Source: an uncultured Candidatus Binatia bacterium (GTDB lineage: Bacteria > Desulfobacterota > Binatia > Bin18). Taken from it: DNA of 64,000 nucleotides. Below, piece by piece: positions 10,115 through 46,033 of this stretch (positions within the stretch are counted from its first letter, which is position 1; each line of letters begins with the position of its first letter). The position numbers and the translations under genes were made by a program. The stretch covers positions 248,001-312,000 of the forward strand of contig OY282457.1 in NCBI GenBank assembly GCA_958296235.1, given 5' to 3'. The notes below the pieces were generated by a model. That model was given only the letters and a program-made list of their open reading frames with translations. It made no database searches and was not told the DNA's origin.

Positions 10115-10897
10115 ATGAAGTTTGTGAGCCTGGAAGAAGCCAAGCAGGCGTCGGGTCTGCGCCTGACGTTTGTAGCCAATGCGCCGAGTCCGTGGGGGGA
10201 AGCCGTCAAAGGCATGCTCAAGACCAAAAATATTCCGTTCACCGCAACGCTCTACAATTCAGGTGATCCGGCGAACAAAGCCCTGGTGGAGTGGACGGGT
10301 GAAGATAGCGCCCCGTCCGCCATGTATGAAGACGAAGCGTCCCGGTCGGGGTGGGCGGAAATCCTGCTCCTGCTTGAACGCCTCCAACCCGCACCGAGTC
10401 TCATTCCGACTGACCCCGAACAGCGGGCGCTCATGTTTGGCCTCTCGCATGAAATCTGTGGTGAGATGGGCCTGGGCTGGTCGGTCCGGTTGCTGATGGC
10501 TGATTTCGCGCTTGACCCGCATGTGGACTATCCCATTCCGCCAGAGATGGGCCAGTATTTGGGAGCGAAGTATGGCTATCGCCCCGGGATAGGGCCGGAA
10601 GCAACCAGACGGGTAACGGATGTTCTTACGATGTTGTCCACCCGCCTCAAAGATCAACAGGCACAGGGCAATCGATTCCTGATGGGTGAAAACGTTACGG
10701 CGCTCGATTTCTATTGGGCCACGTTTTGCGCCCTGATGAAACCGCTGCCGCCTGAGCAGTGTAAAATTATGGATGTCTTACGCGCCGCCTTCGAGTTCCC
10801 AAATCCAGCTATTGAACAGGCCCTTGATCCAGCCCTGATTGAACACCGGGACTTTATGTATGACGAGTATCTCGGGCTGCCGATGGTGCTTGCGTAG
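10115..10897 (+). CDS. glutathione S-transferase-like protein
   Basis: 260-residue protein with an N-terminal thioredoxin-like half (RLTFVANAPSPWGEAVKGML, then IPFTATLY) and an all-helical C-terminal half containing ALDFYWATF, the pattern of soluble GSTs. The start is the ATG 4 nt after AAGGAGGATAGT; an upstream in-frame start lacks a ribosome site. A close paralogue lies at 35032 (same length, same EEQQAQG-type segment and the same HRDFMYDEYLGLPM-type C-terminus). No CPxC or catalytic Cys is seen in the first loop. Role probably detoxification or small-molecule conjugation; substrate unknown. Confidence 0.75.
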   Translation: MKFVSLEEAKQASGLRLTFVANAPSPWGEAVKGMLKTKNIPFTATLYNSGDPANKALVEWTGEDSAPSAMYEDEASRSGWAEILLLLERLQPAPSLIPTDPEQRALMFGLSHEICGEMGLGWSVRLLMADFALDPHVDYPIPPEMGQYLGAKYGYRPGIGPEATRRVTDVLTMLSTRLKDQQAQGNRFLMGENVTALDFYWATFCALMKPLPPEQCKIMDVLRAAFEFPNPAIEQALDPALIEHRDFMYDEYLGLPMVLA

Positions 10898-10948
10898 CGC
10901 TGCCGGGAGACGCCTGAGTCTCCCGACTCATTTTCATGCCCCGAGCGT
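10883..10948. repeat. 66-bp direct repeat, copy 1
   Basis: Identical over 66 bp to 11404-11469. It begins inside the last codons of the GST-like gene (ATG GTG CTT GCG TAG), covers the hairpin after it and ends in CCCCGAGCGT. The two copies bracket the small repeat-protein gene at 10991. Beyond the exact match there is weaker similarity up to both following start regions (GCAGG.GAAAC). Confidence 0.95.
10904..10925 (+). terminator. hairpin after GST-like gene
   Basis: Perfect 7-bp stem CGGGAGA/TCTCCCG with an 8-nt loop, 6 bp after the stop codon and followed by a T-containing tract (CTCATTTTC). The same hairpin recurs inside the second repeat copy at about 11425-11446. Probably a modest intrinsic terminator. 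Confidence 0.6.
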
Positions 10949-10990
10949 TATAATATGCCGTTCAGGCGTTGAGCGCAGGAGAAACCCGCT

Positions 10991-11398
10991 ATGGAACCGC
11001 AAACCGTAGAGCTGGGAGAAAAGACCCTCTATGCCTTGGCCGCTATCGCCAATCCCGGCATGATGCCTGGTGACTGGATAGCGCTCGGGGTGGGGCTGTC
11101 CCAATGCGCCTTGATTGCCTGGGGGATTCACAGAATGAGCATGGGAAATGAGGCAAGAGAGGCGCAAACGGAACTGTTGAGAGAACAAACCCGTGCCTTG
11201 AGAGAACAGTCAAACGTGTTGGCTGGTGTTGGTGAGGGGATAAGAGAACAGTCAAAAATGTTGGCTGGTGTTGGTGAGGGGATAAGAGAACAGTCAAAAA
11301 TGTTGGCTGGTGTTGGTGAGGGGATAAGAGAACAGTCAAAAATGTTGGCCGGTGTTGGTGAGGGGATTCAGGTTTTACTCGCTGACAGGAAGAACTAG
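10991..11398 (+). CDS. small membrane/coiled-coil protein with 14-residue repeats
   Basis: 135-residue hypothetical protein. Residues about 28-48 (DWIALGVGLSQCALIAWGI) form one hydrophobic segment. The rest is polar and predicted coiled coil: QTELLREQTRALREQSNV, then a 14-residue unit LAGVGEGIREQSKM in three full copies and one partial, coded by perfect or near-perfect 42-bp DNA repeats (11219-11371), so copy number may vary. A TATAAT-like box (TTATAATATG) stands about 40 bp upstream of the ATG. The gene lies between the 66-bp repeats. Not recognised; a membrane-anchored, phage- or cassette-type small protein is a guess. Confidence 0.65.
   Translation: MEPQTVELGEKTLYALAAIANPGMMPGDWIALGVGLSQCALIAWGIHRMSMGNEAREAQTELLREQTRALREQSNVLAGVGEGIREQSKMLAGVGEGIREQSKMLAGVGEGIREQSKMLAGVGEGIQVLLADRKN
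11219..11371 (+). repeat. 42-bp in-frame tandem repeat
   Basis: Three full 42-bp units and one partial unit, in frame, encoding LAGVGEGIREQSKM. The first unit differs slightly upstream (QSNV in place of QSKM). The near-identity of units at DNA level indicates recent expansion by slippage or unequal exchange. Confidence 0.93.
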
Positions 11399-11403
11399 AC
11401 TAC

Positions 11404-11469
11404 ATGGTGCTTGCGTAGCGCTGCCGGGAGACGCCTGAGTCTCCCGACTCATTTTCATGCCCCGAGCGT
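11404..11469. repeat. 66-bp direct repeat, copy 2
   Basis: Exact copy of 10883-10948, including the orphan last codons and terminator hairpin of the GST-like gene. It starts a few bases after the stop codon of the repeat-protein gene. Marks the right edge of a duplicated or inserted segment of about 520 bp. Confidence 0.95.
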
Positions 11470-11575
11470 GATGCTACCCTGCGAACGCAGGCGAAACGCT
11501 TATGAACATGAAACTCACGCCACAAAGCAGGCTATTTACAAACAGAGGGGAAGCGTATGATTTAAGGAGGCCGTG

Positions 11576-19397: not shown

Positions 19398-19694
19398 ATG
19401 TCTGACTTAAAAAGTTTCATCTTGGACTCAGGATTGCCGTCAAGATTGTCATCAACTGAACTTAAAACTCGAATGAGCAGGCTTTTACCTGCAGCAGGCA
19501 TTCTTCCTCCTGGTCGAGATGAGTTTGAACGAGATAGGTTTATTAGCGAAGTAGCGAATTTAGCTCACAGTGAGAAAATCATCACTTCGCTTAGTGAAGA
19601 AGTTGGACAGCCAAAAGAAAACGAATCAGAAGATGAATTCGTAAACAGGGCAAAATCAACTCTGGCAAATCTGCTTTGGCGGGAAATACAGTAG
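19398..19694 (+). CDS. hypothetical 98-residue protein, cassette partner
   Basis: Soluble, mostly helical, starting MSDLKSFILDSGLPSRLSST. No recognisable motif. Codon use is AT-richer than that of the metabolic genes on both sides (for example AAA, GAA and TTA are common). With the 56-residue gene 6 bp upstream it forms a two-gene unit between two copies of a short direct repeat. Possibly an immunity or antitoxin partner, purely from layout. Confidence 0.65.
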   Translation: MSDLKSFILDSGLPSRLSSTELKTRMSRLLPAAGILPPGRDEFERDRFISEVANLAHSEKIITSLSEEVGQPKENESEDEFVNRAKSTLANLLWREIQ

Positions 19695-22295: not shown

Positions 22296-22373
22296 GGCCT
22301 GACCCCTGCTCGCCTTGACCACCCGAAACCCAGCGTCTAGGCTCACGTCAACAGCAGCTCAGGAGGTTAGGAA
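22291..22373. repeat. direct repeat bordering gasdermin cassette, left copy
   Basis: Includes the desaturase stop codon, a promoter and a ribosome site. The last 65 bp (22309-22373) match 24826-24890 with one mismatch; the first 18 bp are more diverged. The pair encloses the 2.4-kb AT-richer two-gene insert. Confidence 0.95.
22315..22343 (+). promoter_or_regulatory. sigma70-like promoter, left (duplicated) copy
   Basis: TTGACC, 17-bp spacer, TAGGCT, then a 30-nt leader with AGGAGG. It would drive the gasdermin operon. The same boxes occur at 24832-24860 ahead of the acyl-CoA dehydrogenase gene. Confidence 0.55.
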
Positions 22374-22385
22374 GGGGAGAGCGAA

Positions 22386-23189
22386 ATGAGCTTCTACTCT
22401 ATTTGTAAATCGGATCCTGTCTTGGATTTTATTCGTGATACCTACGACGCAACTCCGTTGAAAATTCCTGATACTCGAATCAAACCTCTTACTTTATTTA
22501 CTACTGTAAAACGCCGCTTCCGGTATATTGGGCCTATCAAGGATATTGCTGCGGACAAGGCGTGGAAAAAACTGCGTCCAGAATCCCAAAAACTGTCAGA
22601 TATCTCGAAGGTCGAGTCACGAAAACTATCTTGGTCTATTGCCATAGACTTATTGAGCCCATTTCTCGCCCAGAGTCTAACACCCTCTCTGACTGACACG
22701 ATGACGAGTCTAAAAGCTTTTCGGAGTACAAGCGTTTGCGTTTCCATTAAGGGCGTGAGGCGGCACTTTATCGCTCCCAGCAGGGTAGCAAATTTATTGA
22801 AATCCGCCCCCATTAATCTAAGAACAATAGATAGCTCAGGGACTCTCCATTTGGTCGACTCCATCCTGGTCGCCCGTAAGATTACATTAAACATGAATTG
22901 CCCTTCTGCAGTTGAGGTCGCAACAAAGCTCGAAAACGCATTGAGTGGTAAGTTTTCGACCGATGCAATCCTTCGCAGTCAATCGTGTGTCTCTATAGCG
23001 GGAAATAAGTTTGTGCCCTTCGCATTCACATGTTTTCAACTACAGATCGACGAATCTGGACGCGCTTCTAGAATAGAATTTCCATCTTCGGGAGGTCCAC
23101 AGATCGGAGCTACACCGATGGGTGTAGATTTGCCGCCCACTCACGTCATGCTTGGAGAACCCAATGAATTCGTTAAAATCGATTCCTGA
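22386..23189 (+). CDS. probable bacterial gasdermin (bGSDM)
   Basis: 267 residues, the length of bacterial gasdermins. A Cys at residue 7 (MSFYSICKSDP) fits the acylated N-terminal Cys of that family. The opening DPVLDFIRDTYDATPLKIP, then TRIKPLTLF and RRFRYIGPIKDI, follows the pattern (DPxLxxLRxxGYxxxxLPxxxIxPLxLL...LG.L..I) I associate with bGSDMs; later ITLNMNCPSAVEVATKLENA and KFVPFAFTCFQLQID fit the central and final strands, followed by a short C-terminal tail that would be the inhibitory peptide. Gasdermins form membrane pores after cleavage by a partner protease and cause abortive death on phage infection. The overlapping downstream gene is a peptidase, which supports the call. AT-richer than neighbours; not confirmed by search. 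Confidence 0.72.
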   Translation: MSFYSICKSDPVLDFIRDTYDATPLKIPDTRIKPLTLFTTVKRRFRYIGPIKDIAADKAWKKLRPESQKLSDISKVESRKLSWSIAIDLLSPFLAQSLTPSLTDTMTSLKAFRSTSVCVSIKGVRRHFIAPSRVANLLKSAPINLRTIDSSGTLHLVDSILVARKITLNMNCPSAVEVATKLENALSGKFSTDAILRSQSCVSIAGNKFVPFAFTCFQLQIDESGRASRIEFPSSGGPQIGATPMGVDLPPTHVMLGEPNEFVKIDS

Positions 23190-24723
23190 CATCACGACAG
23201 CCAGAGATTGGATGGAATGTGAGCAAACTAAGATATACAAACAGATGGCGATTCCTGTTCCCGATTCTAAATCCGTAAATTTCTCACCGGAATGGCTCGA
23301 AAAGTATCTAAAGTCGAATCCTGACTATACGCCTGAGCAACGAGCTTCGTTCGCCAAACAATACAGTGATAGAGACCCATTGCAAGACCGCTCTGATGTT
23401 GGTCGAGTCGGCAAACCTATAAGCGTTTTGATTCTAACTAACCGAGTCGATAATTTAAAGAATGCATGCAAAAGGCTAAATCTACCAGGAGTGGTTGATA
23501 ACGTCGTTTTTGGCAACACTCCAGCAGGCGGATTGGGAGTATCTACATGTAGGATTGAAACATCCGACCATTATTCGGTCTTCATTCCGGACGGATTTTA
23601 TCACTTAATCAACCTATTCAGTAAATTAGTTGTTCTCTTGCAACCGTTTACCCTTATAGAGGAGGGGGTGGTGTATCAACCAGCGGCATCCTTCGATCAG
23701 TTTCGCCTCGCCCGGCACCCGTATATTCAATTCCGCCGCCGTGACCTCCTAAGAGCGTTTTTTATCCATGGAGATGTGGCAGCGGCACTTCCGTACCCCG
23801 CGGCAGTGCCGTTTCAAGATCGTTTGGCGTATTTGCTTGAAGGAACCGAATTATTTGTGATCGCACACGAAGTCGCGCACGTCATTCTCGGACATTTGGA
23901 TAGAGATATCTCAAAATTCACACCAGATGACGAGTTGGAGGCGGATAAACTTGCATTGGAGATTCTCACTGAACATTTTGACACCGAGATGGACCTCCCC
24001 GACGTCCGTGCTGCCCTGTGTATGTTTATGTTCCTCTCGATAGTCGATATATGGGAACAATCACTGCCTGCTCTTCTGTCGGTCGAGAATGAGTCACAAG
24101 TTGCTTCGCATCACCCTAAATTCGAGCAAAGGTTCAAACATTATCTTTCCTTACTTGAAGACTTTGCCCGCCGTCCGAAATTGGAGGAAGCGACAGTACC
24201 ATGGTACATATTCGTACACCGCGCGATAGGACTTGCTACGGAGGAGTCGGAACGTATTGTATTAGATATTGTCGATCAAGCGGGTGGTATAGCTGGAATT
24301 AGTGCATCAGTATTAGGGCCAGACAAGCACATGGGGCACTCGAAACCTGCGCCCCCGGACGTTTGGTATCGTACTATTGCCGAGTTGATTTTGTCAGATA
24401 TTTCAGCCAACCGCCGTCTTGGCTTGTGGTTCTTCCTAAAATTGTCTCTCAATTCCTCGATAGCCTTCTACGATGGCCTATTAGATGACGATGAACCGGA
24501 AGTTCAGAGTCTCTATAGGCAGGCATTGATTTCGATAGAGCCGATGTACGAATGGTATTTGCCGAGGCTCTTTGAGCGAATTCGTGAAGAGACAAGAGAC
24601 GGACAACAAAAGCAATACAAAGAGCAGATTGCTCAGCATCTTGTATTCAAGGCTTCTCTCGAACTTGGGGGCCGTTTTGACATGGATCCCATGCATCCTG
24701 ATTTTTTCAATGATCTTGATTAA
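23164..24723 (+). CDS. HExxH metallopeptidase, gasdermin partner
   Basis: 519 residues. Zinc site IAHEVAHVILGH (about residue 235) with a third ligand in DELEADKLALEIL about 24 residues later, as in M48-like peptidases. The N-terminal 200 residues are unassigned and could sense the trigger; the C-terminal half is helical without a known domain. No signal peptide, so cytosolic. The ATG at 23164 has GGAG 6 nt before it and overlaps the gasdermin gene by 26 bp, implying coupled translation. Most likely cleaves the gasdermin tail. Most bGSDM operons I know of use caspase-like or serine proteases, so a zinc enzyme would be a variant. Confidence 0.85.
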   Translation: MNSLKSIPDITTARDWMECEQTKIYKQMAIPVPDSKSVNFSPEWLEKYLKSNPDYTPEQRASFAKQYSDRDPLQDRSDVGRVGKPISVLILTNRVDNLKNACKRLNLPGVVDNVVFGNTPAGGLGVSTCRIETSDHYSVFIPDGFYHLINLFSKLVVLLQPFTLIEEGVVYQPAASFDQFRLARHPYIQFRRRDLLRAFFIHGDVAAALPYPAAVPFQDRLAYLLEGTELFVIAHEVAHVILGHLDRDISKFTPDDELEADKLALEILTEHFDTEMDLPDVRAALCMFMFLSIVDIWEQSLPALLSVENESQVASHHPKFEQRFKHYLSLLEDFARRPKLEEATVPWYIFVHRAIGLATEESERIVLDIVDQAGGIAGISASVLGPDKHMGHSKPAPPDVWYRTIAELILSDISANRRLGLWFFLKLSLNSSIAFYDGLLDDDEPEVQSLYRQALISIEPMYEWYLPRLFERIREETRDGQQKQYKEQIAQHLVFKASLELGGRFDMDPMHPDFFNDLD

Positions 24724-24806
24724 ACAGCAAATGTTTCTGTGACCGGAACAGTGAATTGACTCCCGGTTTAGTTGGTTTCCACATTCAACTGGGTAGTGTT
24801 ATAGCC

Positions 24807-24890
24807 TGTAGGGCTTCCCCACCTTCTCGCCTTGACCACTCGAAACCCAGCGTCTAGGCTCACGTCAACAGCAGCTCAGGAGGTTAGGAA
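24807..24890. repeat. direct repeat bordering gasdermin cassette, right copy
   Basis: Right-hand partner of 22291-22373, ending 5 bp before the acyl-CoA dehydrogenase ATG. The 65-bp core differs at one base from the left copy. The 24724-24806 stretch before it shows nothing further. Confidence 0.95.
24832..24860 (+). promoter_or_regulatory. sigma70-like promoter of acyl-CoA dehydrogenase gene
   Basis: TTGACC, 17-bp spacer, TAGGCT, then AGGAGG ahead of the ATG at 24896. Identical boxes to the left repeat copy. Probably the ancestral promoter of this gene. Confidence 0.5.
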
Positions 24891-24895
24891 TTACG

Positions 24896-26059
24896 ATGCT
24901 CACTGCACCGACGCGCTTTTTTACCGAAGACCATGAGATATTCCGCGAACAGGTTCGGAATTTTGTGACCAGGGAAGTCCATCCTCATATTGACCAGTGG
25001 GAAGAAGAGGCTCTTTTCCCCAAGTCGCTCTACCAGCGCATGGGTGAACTCGGGTTTCTGGGTATTCGCCATCCCGTAGAGTATGGGGGCAGTGCCGGGG
25101 ATATCTGGATGACGCTCGTCTTTTGTGAGGAGTTGTGTCGTTGCCGGGCCTTGGGCCTCCCCACGAGTGTTTTGGTCCATACCGATATGTCCTCGACCCA
25201 TATCGCCCGCAACGGCACGCCGGAGCAGAAAGAAAAATACCTGCGACCCATGATTACGGGCGAGGCGGTCTGCGCCATAGGCGTGACTGAACCTTCGGGC
25301 GGCTCCGATGTCGCCAGCATACGCACCACGGCAGTGAAAGACGGCGATTCCTACGTCATTAACGGCTCCAAGATTTTTATCACCAACTCCGTCCACGCCG
25401 ACGTCTTTTGCGTGGCTGCCAAAACCGACAAGGATGCCCAGGCGCGCGGCATCTCCATATTCCTTGTCGAGCGTGACACTCCTGGGTTCAGCCTGGCTAA
25501 AAAGCTGGACAAAATGGGCTGTCATAGTTCGGATACCGGCGAGTTGGTCTTTGAAGATGTTCGCGTTCCACGTCACAACCTCTTGGGACAGGAGGGCAAA
25601 GGGTTTTATTATATTATGCAGAACTTCCAGGACGAGCGCCTGATTGCGGCCAGTATGGCCGTGAGTGCGGCCCAGCAGGCTCTTGAAGATACGCTCACCT
25701 ATACACGCGAGCGGGAGACGTTTGGCAAGCGCATATTTGACCATCAGGTCGTGTCGCATCGCCTGGCGGACATGGCGACCGAATTGGAAGCCGCCCGTCA
25801 GTTGACATATTACGCGGCTGATGTGCTGGCCAGCGGGCGTGACTGTAGTACCGAAGTCTCAATGGCAAAGCTGTACGGCTGTAATATAGCCAACAAGATC
25901 GCCTATGAGTGCGTCCAACTGCACGGTGGCTACGGCTATATGAAAGAGTTTGCGGTTGAACGGTTCTACCGGGACATCCGTCAGAGCACGATTGCCGGAG
26001 GGTCCGCCGAGATTATGAAGGAAATCATCGTTAAGCGCGGGCTGGACCGGGACCTGTAG
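24896..26059 (+). CDS. acyl-CoA dehydrogenase
   Basis: 387 residues, full family length. Signature 1 is CAIGVTEPSGGSDVASI, and the C-terminal signature covers CVQLHGGYGYMKEF followed by YRDIRQSTIAGGSAEIMKEI. Catalytic Glu is expected in the loop before the C-terminal helix. FAD-dependent alpha,beta-dehydrogenation of an acyl-CoA. The ATG follows AGGAGGTTAGGAATTACG. Before the gasdermin cassette was inserted it presumably followed the desaturase directly. Confidence 0.96.
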   Translation: MLTAPTRFFTEDHEIFREQVRNFVTREVHPHIDQWEEEALFPKSLYQRMGELGFLGIRHPVEYGGSAGDIWMTLVFCEELCRCRALGLPTSVLVHTDMSSTHIARNGTPEQKEKYLRPMITGEAVCAIGVTEPSGGSDVASIRTTAVKDGDSYVINGSKIFITNSVHADVFCVAAKTDKDAQARGISIFLVERDTPGFSLAKKLDKMGCHSSDTGELVFEDVRVPRHNLLGQEGKGFYYIMQNFQDERLIAASMAVSAAQQALEDTLTYTRERETFGKRIFDHQVVSHRLADMATELEAARQLTYYAADVLASGRDCSTEVSMAKLYGCNIANKIAYECVQLHGGYGYMKEFAVERFYRDIRQSTIAGGSAEIMKEIIVKRGLDRDL

Positions 26060-38345: not shown

Positions 38346-38510
38346 ATGAGCATGATGATGCGGGCGGCTGCTCAGGCCAGGTCAGAAGAAAGTCTGGCGA
38401 CCAGGGCCGACATTGTACGCCTTGAACGGGAATTGTCGGTCGTGAAGTGGATGACCAGCGCGATTGTTGCCGGCGTTGTTGCACTGTTGCTCAAGGCATT
38501 CGCCGATTAA
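38346..38510 (+). CDS. small DUF1640-like coiled-coil/TM protein
   Basis: 54 residues, too short for many gene finders. A charged helix ATRADIVRLERELSVVKWM is followed by a membrane helix TSAIVAGVVALLLKAF. The layout parallels the 76-residue protein at 11576 (ATKADLNELEAKILKLM plus TM). Stops 8 bp before the HEPN gene, so likely in its operon. No clear ribosome site. Function unknown. Confidence 0.55.
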   Translation: MSMMMRAAAQARSEESLATRADIVRLERELSVVKWMTSAIVAGVVALLLKAFAD

Positions 38511-38518
38511 GGCGCAGG

Positions 38519-38932
38519 ATGAGTGAGAGCGAAGAAAATCGCATGTTCATCGAACGCGCCCAGGAAGGACTGGAAGCGGCGCAGCTTTGCTTGGAAAAGA
38601 ACCTCTTCCACTCTGCGACCAGCAGAGCGTATTATGCCACGTTCTGGGCGGCGCAGGTGGCGTTGGCTGCTATAGGGGTCAAGCGTTCGGAGTGGAGTCA
38701 TCCCGATTTACAATCGACCTTTGCGACTAAACTGGTGCGACGACGCAAACGGTATCCGAAGCATTTTGGCCCACGGTTCTACGAGATTTTTCAGTTGCGG
38801 CTTGATGCAGACTATCGCTGGAAAGGCGTTAGCAGAAGAAAAGCAACCCGGGCAGTGGGTTGGGCGCGTGAATTCGTCACAACCGTCATTGCCAAGGAGA
38901 CTTCGCATGACACAGACAGCCCAGACACATGA
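38519..38932 (+). CDS. HEPN-domain protein (UPF0332-like)
   Basis: 137 residues, four-helix HEPN fold. SATSRAYYATFWAAQVALAA and the later LRLDADYRWKG match the SRAYYAxFxAA and RxxADY motifs of UPF0332 proteins. HEPN proteins are often RNA-cleaving or RNA-modifying toxins paired with nucleotidyltransferase (MNT) antitoxins. The ATG follows GGCGCAGG. The downstream gene overlaps by 26 bp. Pairing with an MNT-like protein that also carries a nuclease domain is unusual. Confidence 0.85.
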   Translation: MSESEENRMFIERAQEGLEAAQLCLEKNLFHSATSRAYYATFWAAQVALAAIGVKRSEWSHPDLQSTFATKLVRRRKRYPKHFGPRFYEIFQLRLDADYRWKGVSRRKATRAVGWAREFVTTVIAKETSHDTDSPDT

Positions 38933-39572: not shown

Positions 39573-39681
39573 TTGCGAACGAACGCTTGGAACAGCTCGC
39601 TGGAGCTGTCGGAACGCTCCGCTAATCCGACAGCCGACGCTGGCGTAGAATGGTAAACAATACGACCAGGGGGTGATGAAT

Positions 39682-40437
39682 ATGGTAGGAAAAACATGGC
39701 GTGCGCTGGTTGGCCTGGTGGGTGCCACCGTGCTTTCGGGTATTGCCGCTTTCGCCGAAGTCCACTGGGACTACGAGGGCACTGACGGCCCAAAGCATTG
39801 GGGATCGCTAGACCCGGCGTTTGCGGCTTGCGCCAGCGGGACCGAGCAGTCGCCCGTCGATCTCACCGGCGCGCAGGAGAGCGACCTGTCAAGCCTCGCG
39901 TTCGACTACACGCCGAGCCCAATCACCATCTCGAATAACGGCCACACCATACAGGTGGACTATGCGCCGGGAAGCGGTATCGTCCTTGACGGTGCCCGCT
40001 ATGAACTGCTCCAGTTCCACTTCCATCACGTCAGCGAGCACGCGGTAGACGGCGTCCGGTTTCCGCTGGAGCTGCACTTGGTGCATCGCAACAACAGCGG
40101 CGCCCTCGCGGTAGTCGGCGTTCTCTTCGAGGCTGGCGGCGCCAATGAGGCACTCAAACCGCTGTGGAGCCATCTCCCTGCTAAAGCCGGTCCCGCGACT
40201 ATCGTTGCGGGCGAGGTAGATGCGACGGCGCTCCTGCCCAAGCGTCGAACGACTTGGCGCTACATGGGTTCACTCACCACGCCGCCCTGCACCGATGGCG
40301 TCTCTTGGATAGTCATGACCGAACCGGTGGCGCTGTCGGCTGAACAGATCGAGGCGTTTGGTGCGATCTTTCCTAACAACTCTCGTCCCGTACAGCCGCT
40401 CAACGGGCGCGTTCTGCGGCGAGACGGTGAAGCGTGA
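39682..40437 (+). CDS. alpha-type carbonic anhydrase
   Basis: 251 residues with a signal peptide (ALVGLVGATVLSGIAAFA). Mature part starts VHWDYEGTDGPKHWG. Zinc ligands are the two His of LLQFHFHHVSEH and a third His in LELHLVH; SLTTPPCTDGVSWIV is the conserved substrate-pocket segment (Thr-Thr gate). Secreted or periplasmic CO2/bicarbonate interconversion. The start at 39682 has AGGGGG 8 nt upstream; earlier in-frame starts exist. Monocistronic, wedged between the HEPN module and an IS30 scrap. Confidence 0.95.
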   Translation: MVGKTWRALVGLVGATVLSGIAAFAEVHWDYEGTDGPKHWGSLDPAFAACASGTEQSPVDLTGAQESDLSSLAFDYTPSPITISNNGHTIQVDYAPGSGIVLDGARYELLQFHFHHVSEHAVDGVRFPLELHLVHRNNSGALAVVGVLFEAGGANEALKPLWSHLPAKAGPATIVAGEVDATALLPKRRTTWRYMGSLTTPPCTDGVSWIVMTEPVALSAEQIEAFGAIFPNNSRPVQPLNGRVLRRDGEA

Positions 40438-42262: not shown

Positions 42263-43784
42263 TCTGCTGAAGCTGTGCCTGTTTGCCACAGGCTGCGCCG
42301 GCATCGTCGCCGAGTTTGTGCTGTGCACGCTGGCGACCTATTTCCTTGGCAACGCGGTGCTGCAATGGACGCTGATGATGTCCTTCATGCTGTTTGCCAT
42401 GGGCCTGGGCAGTCACCTGAGTCGCTATTGCAACGCGCACCTGTTGGACACCTTTACTGTTCTTGAATTCGCGCTGTCTCTGCTGTGCGCCAGCGCCGCG
42501 GCCGCAGCCTATGTCCTGTCTCTTTTTCTCACCAACGTGGGGGTGGTGATTTATCCCCTGGGCATCGCCATCGGCCTGTTGATTGGTATGGAGATTCCGC
42601 TCATTACGCGGGTCAATGCCGCCTATGAAGAACTCCGGGTCAATGTCTCTTCCGTCCTGGAGAAAGACTATTACGGCGCGCTTATCGGGGGACTGTTCTT
42701 TGCCTTTGTGGCCCTGCCGTATTTCGGCCTGACCTATACCCCGGTGGCGCTGGGCGCAGTGAACTTCGGGGTTGCCTCGCTCCTGTTGTTTCGCTTTCGG
42801 TCTCTGCTGAGCGCGCCGCGCCTGCTGAGCGGTCTATGGGCGGCTGTTGGCGCCGGGCTTATCGGACTGTTCGTCCTGGCAGAACCCATTCTCCTGTTTG
42901 GCGAGCAAGCCCTGTATAAAGACACCGTTATCCTGGCCAGACAAACGCCCTATCAGCGGCTGGTCATGACGCGCTGGCGGAATGACTACTGGCTCTATAT
43001 CAACGGCAACCAGCAGTTCAGCAGTTATGATGAAGAGCGTTACCACGAACCGCTCGTCCACCCGGCCTTGGCTCTGACCGGCAATCGTGAAGAGGTGCTC
43101 ATTCTCGGCGGTGGCGACGGGCTGGCGTTACGGGAGGCGCTCAAATACTCCCAGGTCAAAGCTGTGACCCTGGTCGATCTCGACCCGGAGATGACAACCC
43201 TGGCCGCCACCCATCCGGTTTTCCTGCAACTCAACGCGCAGGCATTCGCCGACCCGCGGGTGTCGGTTGTCAATGCCGATGCCTTTTCCTTTCTCCAGGA
43301 CACGTCGCATTTATTCGACGTGATTATCATTGATCTGCCCGACCCCAACTCCGCGGAACTCGCCCGGCTGTATTCGCTCAACTTCTATCGCCTGTGCAAG
43401 AAACATCTCAAACGGGGCGGCAGCCTGGTCACGCAGGCGACCAGCCCGTTTTTCAGTCGTCAGGCTTTTGTGTGCATTCAGAAAACAATGGCGGAGGCCG
43501 GCTTCAGCGTTTTGCCCTACCACAACCATGTCCCGACGCTGGGCGAGTGGGGATTTGTGCTGGGGGTGGATGTTGAACTGCTTGGGCCTGCGGCCCTGAA
43601 GGAAACCGTACAAGAGTTGTCCTTCCAGGAGGTTGAGACGCGCTTTCTCAACCAGGACGCCATGATTGCAATGGCAAATTTTGGGAAGGGCGTCTTTCGG
43701 GACGAAAGCGAGATTGAGGTGAATCGGGAGAGCCGGCCCGTTTTACAGGCGTATTACCAGCAGGGCAGGTGGGAGGTGTATTAG
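42231..43784 (+). CDS. membrane-anchored spermidine synthase-like protein
   Basis: About 517 residues. N-terminal half has some seven membrane segments (LLKLCLFATGCAGIVAEFVL onward); C-terminal half is a polyamine aminopropyltransferase domain with YHEPLVHPAL, ILGGGDGLALREAL (cofactor loop), VTLVDLDPEM and DVIIIDLPDPNS (acidic active-site strand). Transfers aminopropyl groups to putrescine-like amines in related enzymes, here probably at the membrane. The start is uncertain: GTG 42231 overlaps DUF350 by 32 bp; an ATG at 42174 would overlap by 89. Its last 230 bp are duplicated at 45731. Confidence 0.88.
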   Translation: MRPFSSLGVSSLLKLCLFATGCAGIVAEFVLCTLATYFLGNAVLQWTLMMSFMLFAMGLGSHLSRYCNAHLLDTFTVLEFALSLLCASAAAAAYVLSLFLTNVGVVIYPLGIAIGLLIGMEIPLITRVNAAYEELRVNVSSVLEKDYYGALIGGLFFAFVALPYFGLTYTPVALGAVNFGVASLLLFRFRSLLSAPRLLSGLWAAVGAGLIGLFVLAEPILLFGEQALYKDTVILARQTPYQRLVMTRWRNDYWLYINGNQQFSSYDEERYHEPLVHPALALTGNREEVLILGGGDGLALREALKYSQVKAVTLVDLDPEMTTLAATHPVFLQLNAQAFADPRVSVVNADAFSFLQDTSHLFDVIIIDLPDPNSAELARLYSLNFYRLCKKHLKRGGSLVTQATSPFFSRQAFVCIQKTMAEAGFSVLPYHNHVPTLGEWGFVLGVDVELLGPAALKETVQELSFQEVETRFLNQDAMIAMANFGKGVFRDESEIEVNRESRPVLQAYYQQGRWEVY

Positions 43785-43785
43785 G
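43556..43785. repeat. spermidine-synthase 3' end, original copy of direct repeat
   Basis: 230 bp that recur at 45731-45879 with 7 substitutions and an 81-bp in-frame deletion. Here the sequence is a functional gene end (…QAYYQQGRWEVY). Marks the left edge of the inserted peptidase segment. Confidence 0.95.
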
Positions 43786-43798
43786 TGGATCATGGTTG

Positions 43799-43954
43799 AT
43801 GGCTTTTGAGACATTCTGGTGGTGTCTCACTTTGGAAATTGTTCTCCGCGCCGCCGGCTGCATCGCCTTATTTCTCCTCCCGGTGGCGACGCCCTATCTT
43901 TTGCGGCACCTACGTCATTTTTTTGTTCTTCCCTCCCATTTGGATGAGAGATAG
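43799..43954 (+). CDS. possible small membrane protein
   Basis: 51 residues: MAFETFWWCLTLEIVLRAAG then CIALFLLPVATPYLLRHL, one or two hydrophobic segments, basic loop RHLRHF. No clear ribosome site. Begins 14 bp after the spermidine-synthase stop. May be a real small protein of the cluster or a chance frame. Confidence 0.35.
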   Translation: MAFETFWWCLTLEIVLRAAGCIALFLLPVATPYLLRHLRHFFVLPSHLDER

Positions 43955-44032
43955 GATGGCAGCATTGTGATAGGAGTCCTTTCTGAATGTTACAGAATTA
44001 TTACAAAGATGATCAAAATTGGGGAGGTACTG

Positions 44033-45717
44033 ATGCACTTCTTGCCTTACTTGTGTTTTGTCCTCTGTGTCTTGGCTTCGACTCTGGTCCACGCCGCAAC
44101 GCTGGGGAATCCGGGGAATAATCAATCCTATTCGGGCATTGGGGTGATCTCGGGCTGGAAGTGTAGCGCTAATGGACCCCTCACAGTGCGCTTCAATGGC
44201 GGCACCCCTATCCCCCTGGGTACGGCAGCAAGCGGCCCGATGTCCTCGAAGAAGGTGCTTGTGATAGTGCCAATGTTGGCTTTGTGGCCATCTGGAACTG
44301 GGCGAACCTGGGCGATGGGGAACATACGGCTGTTGCCTACGATAATGGGGTAGAGTTTGCGCGGAGCAGGTTTGAGGTGGGGACCTTGGGGGCGGAGTTT
44401 GTAAGGGGGGCGAGTGCCGAGGTGCGGGTGGAGGATTTCCCGTCACCGGGGGAGAGCGCACTCCTTGCCTGGAATCAGAACTCCCAACATTTCGAGGTCG
44501 TCCCGGAGAGCCCTGCTCTGAGTTCACCCCCTCCGACCTGGGTGTTTGCAGGCGATGTGCCGGATGCCTACCGGACCGCAGTGCGCGAGGAGATGGAATA
44601 CGTCCGTACTTGGTTCGCCGATCAATACGGCGTCGCGGCAACGGGCTTTACCGTGCTGGTCGGTGCCGACTCTGGAGCACTCGCCTCGGTGTACCGGGAT
44701 GTAGTCGGCCAGGGAACCATCCCCGATTCGCCTCTAGGCATTCTTGTTATGACTGCCGATAACGGTAGTGCTGTCCTTTTAATAAATCTCGGAAGCAAGG
44801 GACTCGCTTTCTATGGAAGCGAGGGACCCGCTATAGCCAAGGAATCCATCCTTCATGAATACTTCCACGTTCTACAGGGACAACTTGCTTCAGGGTTCGC
44901 ACAATTGCCGGATGGCAAAATAGCTCACAATCTGGATCAGGGACCTTTTTGGCTGGTGGAAGGCTTGGCTGAGTATGCTGACTACGCGTACTCCCAATCA
45001 AGGTTGGGCCGGCGACCCTATTTGGACAGGACCACCCACTACGAAGACTTAGCGGATCTCCAACTGAATGGAGAGTTAAATCCGGGTGATGATTTGATGA
45101 AGCTAGAGGACCAGGGAAATTTTCAATATGGCCCCAGGCACCCCATTTATAACTATGCTATGGCCTTCGCTGCGGCAACTCTCTTGGTTGAGCAATCGGA
45201 GGAGGACTCGTACGTGCAGTACTGGAAGTTACTCCATGACCGCCCGACTTGGCAGCAGGCATTTGAGGAAGCCTTCGGCATTGGCATTGAAGACTTTTAT
45301 GAGATGTTCGATGAGTGGCTGCCTTCCCAGCTACCCTCTTATGTCCAGCTCTCAGTGCATCTCCGCTGGCCAGGCAAGGAAACCCTGTCTCGCGATGCTC
45401 TGAGTCGTCTTAATTGGGCTACCGATGTCGAATCTGAGATGATAGTGCACCCTGAAACATGGTTCTCGGGTGGCCTATCAATACGATCTCCTGCCGGGAT
45501 CCCCTGGACAGGTTATCTAAGCCTTTGGTGGGAGTCAGACCAATGCACGAAGCATCTCCTTGGTTGGTACAAGGATGGCGAACTAACGGATCAGCGTACG
45601 GACGCTACGCTGGTTGAGTTCACTGGTAGGTCCTCAAGCCTCGAGTGGACACTGCCCGCACAACCGGACATGCTTCCTCGACTGTCAGAGAAGACTTTGG
45701 GGAACTGCACTCCTTAG
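44033..45717 (+). pseudogene. secreted HEYFH metallopeptidase, frameshifted
   Basis: Starts at an ATG after GGGGAGG with a signal peptide (FVLCVLASTLVHAA). Reading continues in a second frame from about 44230: the break lies near GCAAGCGGCCCGATG, after which the true frame gives RPDVLEEGACDSANVGFVAI and continues WNWANLGDGEHTAV. N-terminal beta-rich domain (SGIGVISGWKCSANGP), then a gluzincin-like peptidase: ILHEYFHVLQGQ zinc site and WLVEGLAEYADYA (third ligand). About 560 residues if repaired. Either a decayed gene or a sequencing error. Lies between two copies of the spermidine-synthase 3' end, so it is inserted cargo. Confidence 0.75.
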
Positions 45718-45730
45718 TGCCCGTGTGCGA

Positions 45731-45879
45731 TGTGCTGGGGGTAGATGTTGAGCTGCTTGAGTCCGCGGCCCTGAAGGAAACCGTACAAGAGTTGTCCTTC
45801 CAGGAGATTGAGGTGAATCGGGAGAGCCGGCCCGTTTTACAGGCGTATTATCAGCAGGGCAGGTAGGAGGTGTATTAGG
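45731..45879. repeat. spermidine-synthase 3' end, degenerate second copy
   Basis: 149 bp matching 43556-43785 after removal of 81 bp between short repeats (GAGGTTGAG/GAGATTGAG). Encodes VDVELLESAALKETVQELSF, but there is no gene body upstream, and the final Trp codon is now TAG. Right edge of the peptidase insertion. Confidence 0.95.
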
Positions 45880-46033
45880 GCTTGGCGGGATTGTTGAGTA
45901 GAGCGATTGCAGGCCGCTTCCGTCCATACTCCACTTTGGAACATTCACAATTGACATCCCTGATTTGACAGTCCAATTGGGCTGTGAAAAGCATGAAAAG
46001 AGCAGATAATTTAATGTTTTAATAAGGAAAACT

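Follow-up and report, generated by a model that had tools for sequence, protein, structure and literature searches.

Does a pair of overlapping genes in an AT-rich cassette encode a gasdermin and the protease that activates it, and if so, what kind of protease is it and how did the pair reach its present site? The question arises in a 64,000-nucleotide stretch of DNA from an uncultured Candidatus Binatia bacterium, here called the window. A preliminary description, made from the letters of the DNA, had proposed that the cassette carries a bacterial gasdermin (bGSDM) and an M48-like metallopeptidase. The features of the locus are collected in Table 1.

Table 1. Coordinates of the cassette, its two genes and the flanking repeats in the window
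Feature	Positions	Strand	Basis
bGSDM gene, 267 aa	22386..23189 (ATG 22386, stop 23189)	+	PADLOC, NCBIfam and PDB matches; alignment
Lit/U49-like zinc metallopeptidase gene, 519 aa	23164..24723 (ATG 23164, stop 24723)	+	PADLOC, NCBIfam; alignment with E. coli Lit
Left copy of 69-bp direct repeat	22305..22373	.	acyl-CoA dehydrogenase leader; repeat search, congener empty sites
Inserted cassette, ~2.45 kb, between direct repeats	22374..24821	.	empty site in six congeners; lower GC and GC3
Right copy of 69-bp direct repeat	24822..24890	.	leader before acyl-CoA dehydrogenase (24896–26059); collinear with congeners

The gasdermin gene

The first gene encodes a 267-residue protein that is, by profile and alignment, a bacterial gasdermin. 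The PADLOC bGSDM profile matches residues 6–242 with an E-value of 3.1e-33, covering 237 of its 257 positions. The NCBIfam profile prok_gasdermin also matches (1.4e-21), with a score of 77.2 bits that lies under its naming cut-off of 100. In a phmmer search against the PDB, the protein matches the bGSDM chains 7n51 (2.6e-8) and 8sl0 (3.4e-8). The 7n51 alignment spans residues 7–225 and pairs Cys7, whose codon is 22404–22406, with Cys4 of the 7n51 chain.

The protein ends in a short C-terminal tail containing the residues EPNEFVKIDS, which are encoded at 23157–23186. When the protein is aligned with four further gasdermins of its phylum, this tail falls where theirs do. Identity to these four proteins is 20–21%, and the 267-residue gasdermin is therefore a divergent member. 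The gasdermin call of the preliminary description is thus supported by profile and PDB-sequence matches, and the N-terminal cysteine and the short tail that it had pointed out are both present.

In most bGSDMs the N-terminal cysteine is palmitoylated, as stated in PMC9612521, and Cys7 is probably lipidated too. No cleavage site is readable from the gasdermin sequence. An AlphaFold2 model computed from the single sequence, without homologues, has a pLDDT of 34 and is too poor for a fold search. Because this model is uninformative, the gasdermin fold is assigned from sequence.

The partner peptidase

The second gene starts within the first, and the two overlap by 26 bp, which suggests translational coupling. 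An alternative TTG start at 23152 would extend the peptidase to 523 residues. Its catalytic motifs HEVAH (23866–23880), ELEAD (23932–23946) and HP (24112–24117) are intact.

The preliminary description gave the coordinates, the lengths, the overlap and the HEVAH and ELEAD motifs as found here, and it was right in naming a zinc-type HExxH peptidase, but its assignment to the M48 family is rejected. Pfam reports M78 and M48 matches, both sub-threshold, and the M48 match scores 14.2 bits, where the cut-off is 20.3, and spans 20 residues only. The PADLOC peptidase_U41 profile matches residues 143–343 of the 523-residue frame (4.4e-19, 67 bits), and the NCBIfam profile for phage exclusion protein Lit matches 126 residues (3.2e-7, 29.9 bits, with an equivalog cut-off of 274). 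Since these two profiles match a longer stretch than M48 does, the partner is classed as Lit/U49-like rather than M48-like. The PADLOC Lit profile matches at 4.3e-4. Judged by these scores, the partner is a relative of Lit and not an orthologue. For both predicted identities, gasdermin and peptidase, the PADLOC profile matches exclude chance. A PDB sequence search with the peptidase returned nothing significant, and its single-sequence AlphaFold2 model, computed without homologues, is too poor for a fold search (pLDDT 38).

Lit of E. coli K-12 (locus L034), a Peptidase U49 enzyme of the e14 prophage, likewise matches PADLOC peptidase_U41, at 1.5e-10. The partner aligns with it through HE(V/I)xHVxLxH, ExEAD and HP, and the two enzymes share the pattern HExxHxxLxH, ExEAD, HP. 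They differ in that E. coli Lit has 297 residues and the window peptidase 519, with ~26% identity over ~106 residues. The window peptidase is also linked to a gasdermin and falls far under the NCBIfam Lit cut-off.

E. coli Lit cleaves EF-Tu on T4 infection, and it is activated by the T4 Gol peptide together with EF-Tu. Given this established activity and the resemblance in the HExxH, ExEAD and HP motifs, the window peptidase might have EF-Tu or another host protein as its target and not the gasdermin, in which case one operon would carry two independent killing arms. We regard such an arrangement as unlikely. The similarity to Lit does not extend beyond the catalytic region and amounts to 30 bits against the 274 of the NCBIfam equivalog cut-off, and in the bGSDMs examined to date activation is by proteases from adjoining genes (PMC9612521, PMC9079055).

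Insertion of the cassette

The two repeat copies that flank the cassette are 97% identical over 69 nt, and no further copy is present elsewhere in the genome. The repeat is a duplicate of the leader that precedes the acyl-CoA dehydrogenase gene downstream. Within it are CAGGAGG and a weak promoter-like element, TTGACC-17-TAGGCT, which was not reported by a promoter scan because it lies below the threshold of the scan. In six congeners the 69-bp sequence is present as a single copy and the insert is missing; TTGACC and TAGGCT are unchanged there, and AGGAGG is kept. As the repeat is a host leader that congeners possess once, the cassette has come to lie behind one leader copy, with the second left for the displaced gene.

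The GC content of the cassette is 0.45–0.46 and its GC3 is 0.44–0.46, compared with 0.56–0.61 and 0.63–0.70 in the flanking genes. The cassette is a real insertion of foreign DNA and was acquired horizontally. An AT-richer composition, direct repeats and horizontal acquisition had all been noted or proposed before; composition and repeats are confirmed by these values, and acquisition is supported by the empty site in the six congeners. The cassette contains no transposase or integrase, and its structure fits a homology-assisted integration of foreign DNA.

The neighbours of the cassette are metabolic genes, encoding SDRs, a desaturase, the acyl-CoA dehydrogenase and a DAHP synthase, and do not form a defence island. 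Such surroundings would suit a gasdermin module with a role other than phage defence, for example in a regulated lysis or in the release of intracellular material. A strain-specific insertion of AT-rich composition is nonetheless typical of defence cassettes, and, as described in PMC9079055, a bGSDM operon from Lysobacter gave E. coli protection against T4, T5 and T6, so that a non-phage role appears quite improbable.

Other inserts in the window and the genus

A second repeat-flanked insert is found near the start of the window. The segments 10883–10951 and 11404–11472 (69 nt, 99%) are direct repeats that copy the 3' end of the gene upstream. Between them, the insert (10952–11403) encodes a 135-residue protein with 14-residue tandem repeats, and the segment 11473–11829, which follows, encodes a 77-residue CCDC90-like protein. 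Both inserted segments are absent in congeners, which keep a single copy of the repeat. Another insert (43786–45730) lies between the segments 43556–43785 and 45731–45881, which hold long direct duplications of the upstream gene's 3' end (82 nt at 93% and 76 nt at 97%). Its 477-residue ORF shows weak Peptidase_M9 similarity. Congener inserts with flanking duplications of 78 bp or 131 bp (76%) are located at ~8015–9058 of L060 (G003 contig C78) and at G001:C1:3904131-3906540.

Over ~220 kb, long flanking direct repeats with identities of 76–99% accompany three or four of 29 gene-sized indels. A special insertion mechanism of the genus that works through long direct repeats is rejected as a general rule because so few of the indels show them. 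Genes may be gained in the genus with the help of short homology.

Two other segments of the window are also inserts by comparison with congeners. The AT-rich ORF at 19398–19694 (98 residues, GC3 0.33) lies in a ~630-bp insert missing from congeners and matches phrog_2336, of unknown function, at 1.2e-15. Comparison with four congeners shows the segment 38310–40648 to be a 2.3-kb insert. It contains a HEPN-domain ORF (38447–38932), a 283-residue ORF that matches nothing in Pfam and a gene for an alpha-type carbonic anhydrase (39673–40437).

Distribution of the two families

The gasdermin–peptidase pair is present in one of the seven genomes of the genus, the six searchable congeners being without it. 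Searches of the remaining genus and family yielded no relative of the gasdermin or of peptidase_U41. A bGSDM match is present in six of 395 genomes sampled from the phylum, the source genome included. In three of the five others, a gene for a clostripain-like (C11) protease directly follows the gasdermin; one has no recognisable protease adjoining, and in one the match is to a longer predicted lipoprotein.

The three C11 pairs come from genomes of one genus (L024 7875–10060, L025 8970–11164 and L026 8400–10763). They resemble the window pair in having the protease gene directly after the gasdermin, but the partner is an unrelated cysteine protease and gasdermin identity is ~21%. The lipoprotein (L027 6432–7952, genome G253) has 506 residues and an LSTTTC lipobox-like signal. 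A gasdermin-like stretch (residues 72–258, E=7e-9) is accompanied by ~250 further residues, and the protein may be gasdermin-like and exported.

Apart from the gene in the window itself, the phylum and class draws gave no strong peptidase_U41 match. Searches of genome contigs, viral contigs and plasmids gave no relatives of either window protein, and a search of a phage collection, made with the peptidase only, gave none of the peptidase. One bGSDM is carried by a Gloeothece plasmid and was found with a query other than the window proteins. No orthologous gasdermin–peptidase pair was found in the genus, family, phylum and class draws or in the contig, viral, plasmid and phage sets, and conserved linkage of these two sequences is for this reason not demonstrable.

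Restriction to one genome of seven, and the distant position of both proteins within their families, would also be expected of a cassette that has lost its function and is decaying. The two reading frames, however, are intact, the motifs are complete and the genes still overlap, which makes decay highly improbable.

Relation to known systems

The legend to Fig 2 of PMC9612521 lists a 'peptidase (Peptidase U49)' among the bGSDM operon genes of Ideonella, Runella, Oscillochloris and Sphingobium. The operon that bears it is probably that of Ideonella sp. Since a bGSDM operon with Peptidase U49 has already been drawn in this figure, the pairing is not new, and a metallopeptidase partner is less of a novelty than the preliminary description implied. 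The link between U49 and bGSDM was traced to this one published figure only, and the PADLOC peptidase_U41 model is presumably part of the same association. Literature searches, with the primary bGSDM operon papers outside their scope, found no experimental test of a bGSDM and Lit/U49 pair.

The operon in the figure and the window cassette both combine a gasdermin with a Lit/U49-type peptidase. Compared by the description in the legend, the window cassette differs in having only two genes, in their 26-bp overlap and in lying between direct repeats. The Runella and Lysobacter bGSDM systems (PMC9079055, PMC9612521) resemble it in their short gasdermin with an N-terminal cysteine and a short tail, and in the adjoining protease gene. 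They use caspase-like or trypsin-like proteases, whereas the window partner is a predicted zinc HExxH enzyme. The window system lacks caspase-like, trypsin-like and NLR genes.

Proposed function and mechanism

The cassette is likely to be a horizontally acquired, two-gene abortive-infection module in which a gasdermin is activated by protease and a Lit-like enzyme cuts the linker to its tail. If it works like the systems already tested (PMC9079055, PMC9612521), the pair would follow a scheme of cleavage and then pore formation. The short C-terminal tail would hold the 267-residue gasdermin inactive. A trigger, probably derived from a phage, would activate the Lit/U49-like peptidase, which would cut the gasdermin linker between approximately residues 226 and 255 and free the tail. 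The freed gasdermin would then oligomerise into membrane pores, and the pores would kill or arrest the infected cell.

The peptidase contains ~230 residues before HEVAH and ~180 after HP that have no Pfam match, and these regions could hold a sensor. At most, the resemblance to Lit suggests that the peptidase itself could act as the sensor of a phage product. A more specific proposal, which we put forward tentatively and consider doubtful, is that the two genes form a self-sufficient system with the peptidase as its phage sensor. The peptidase would be activated by a phage product, either directly or via a host protein, and would then cut the gasdermin without an NLR, CARD or caspase stage.

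The bGSDMs tested to date use caspase-like or trypsin-like proteases, sometimes in multi-gene sensor cascades. As the kind of pairing described here has been noted before, its value lies in testing it and not in its discovery. A module of two genes with a Lit-like zinc protease would unite Lit exclusion and gasdermin pores, both classic devices of cell suicide, and would allow a direct test of whether the protease senses the phage.
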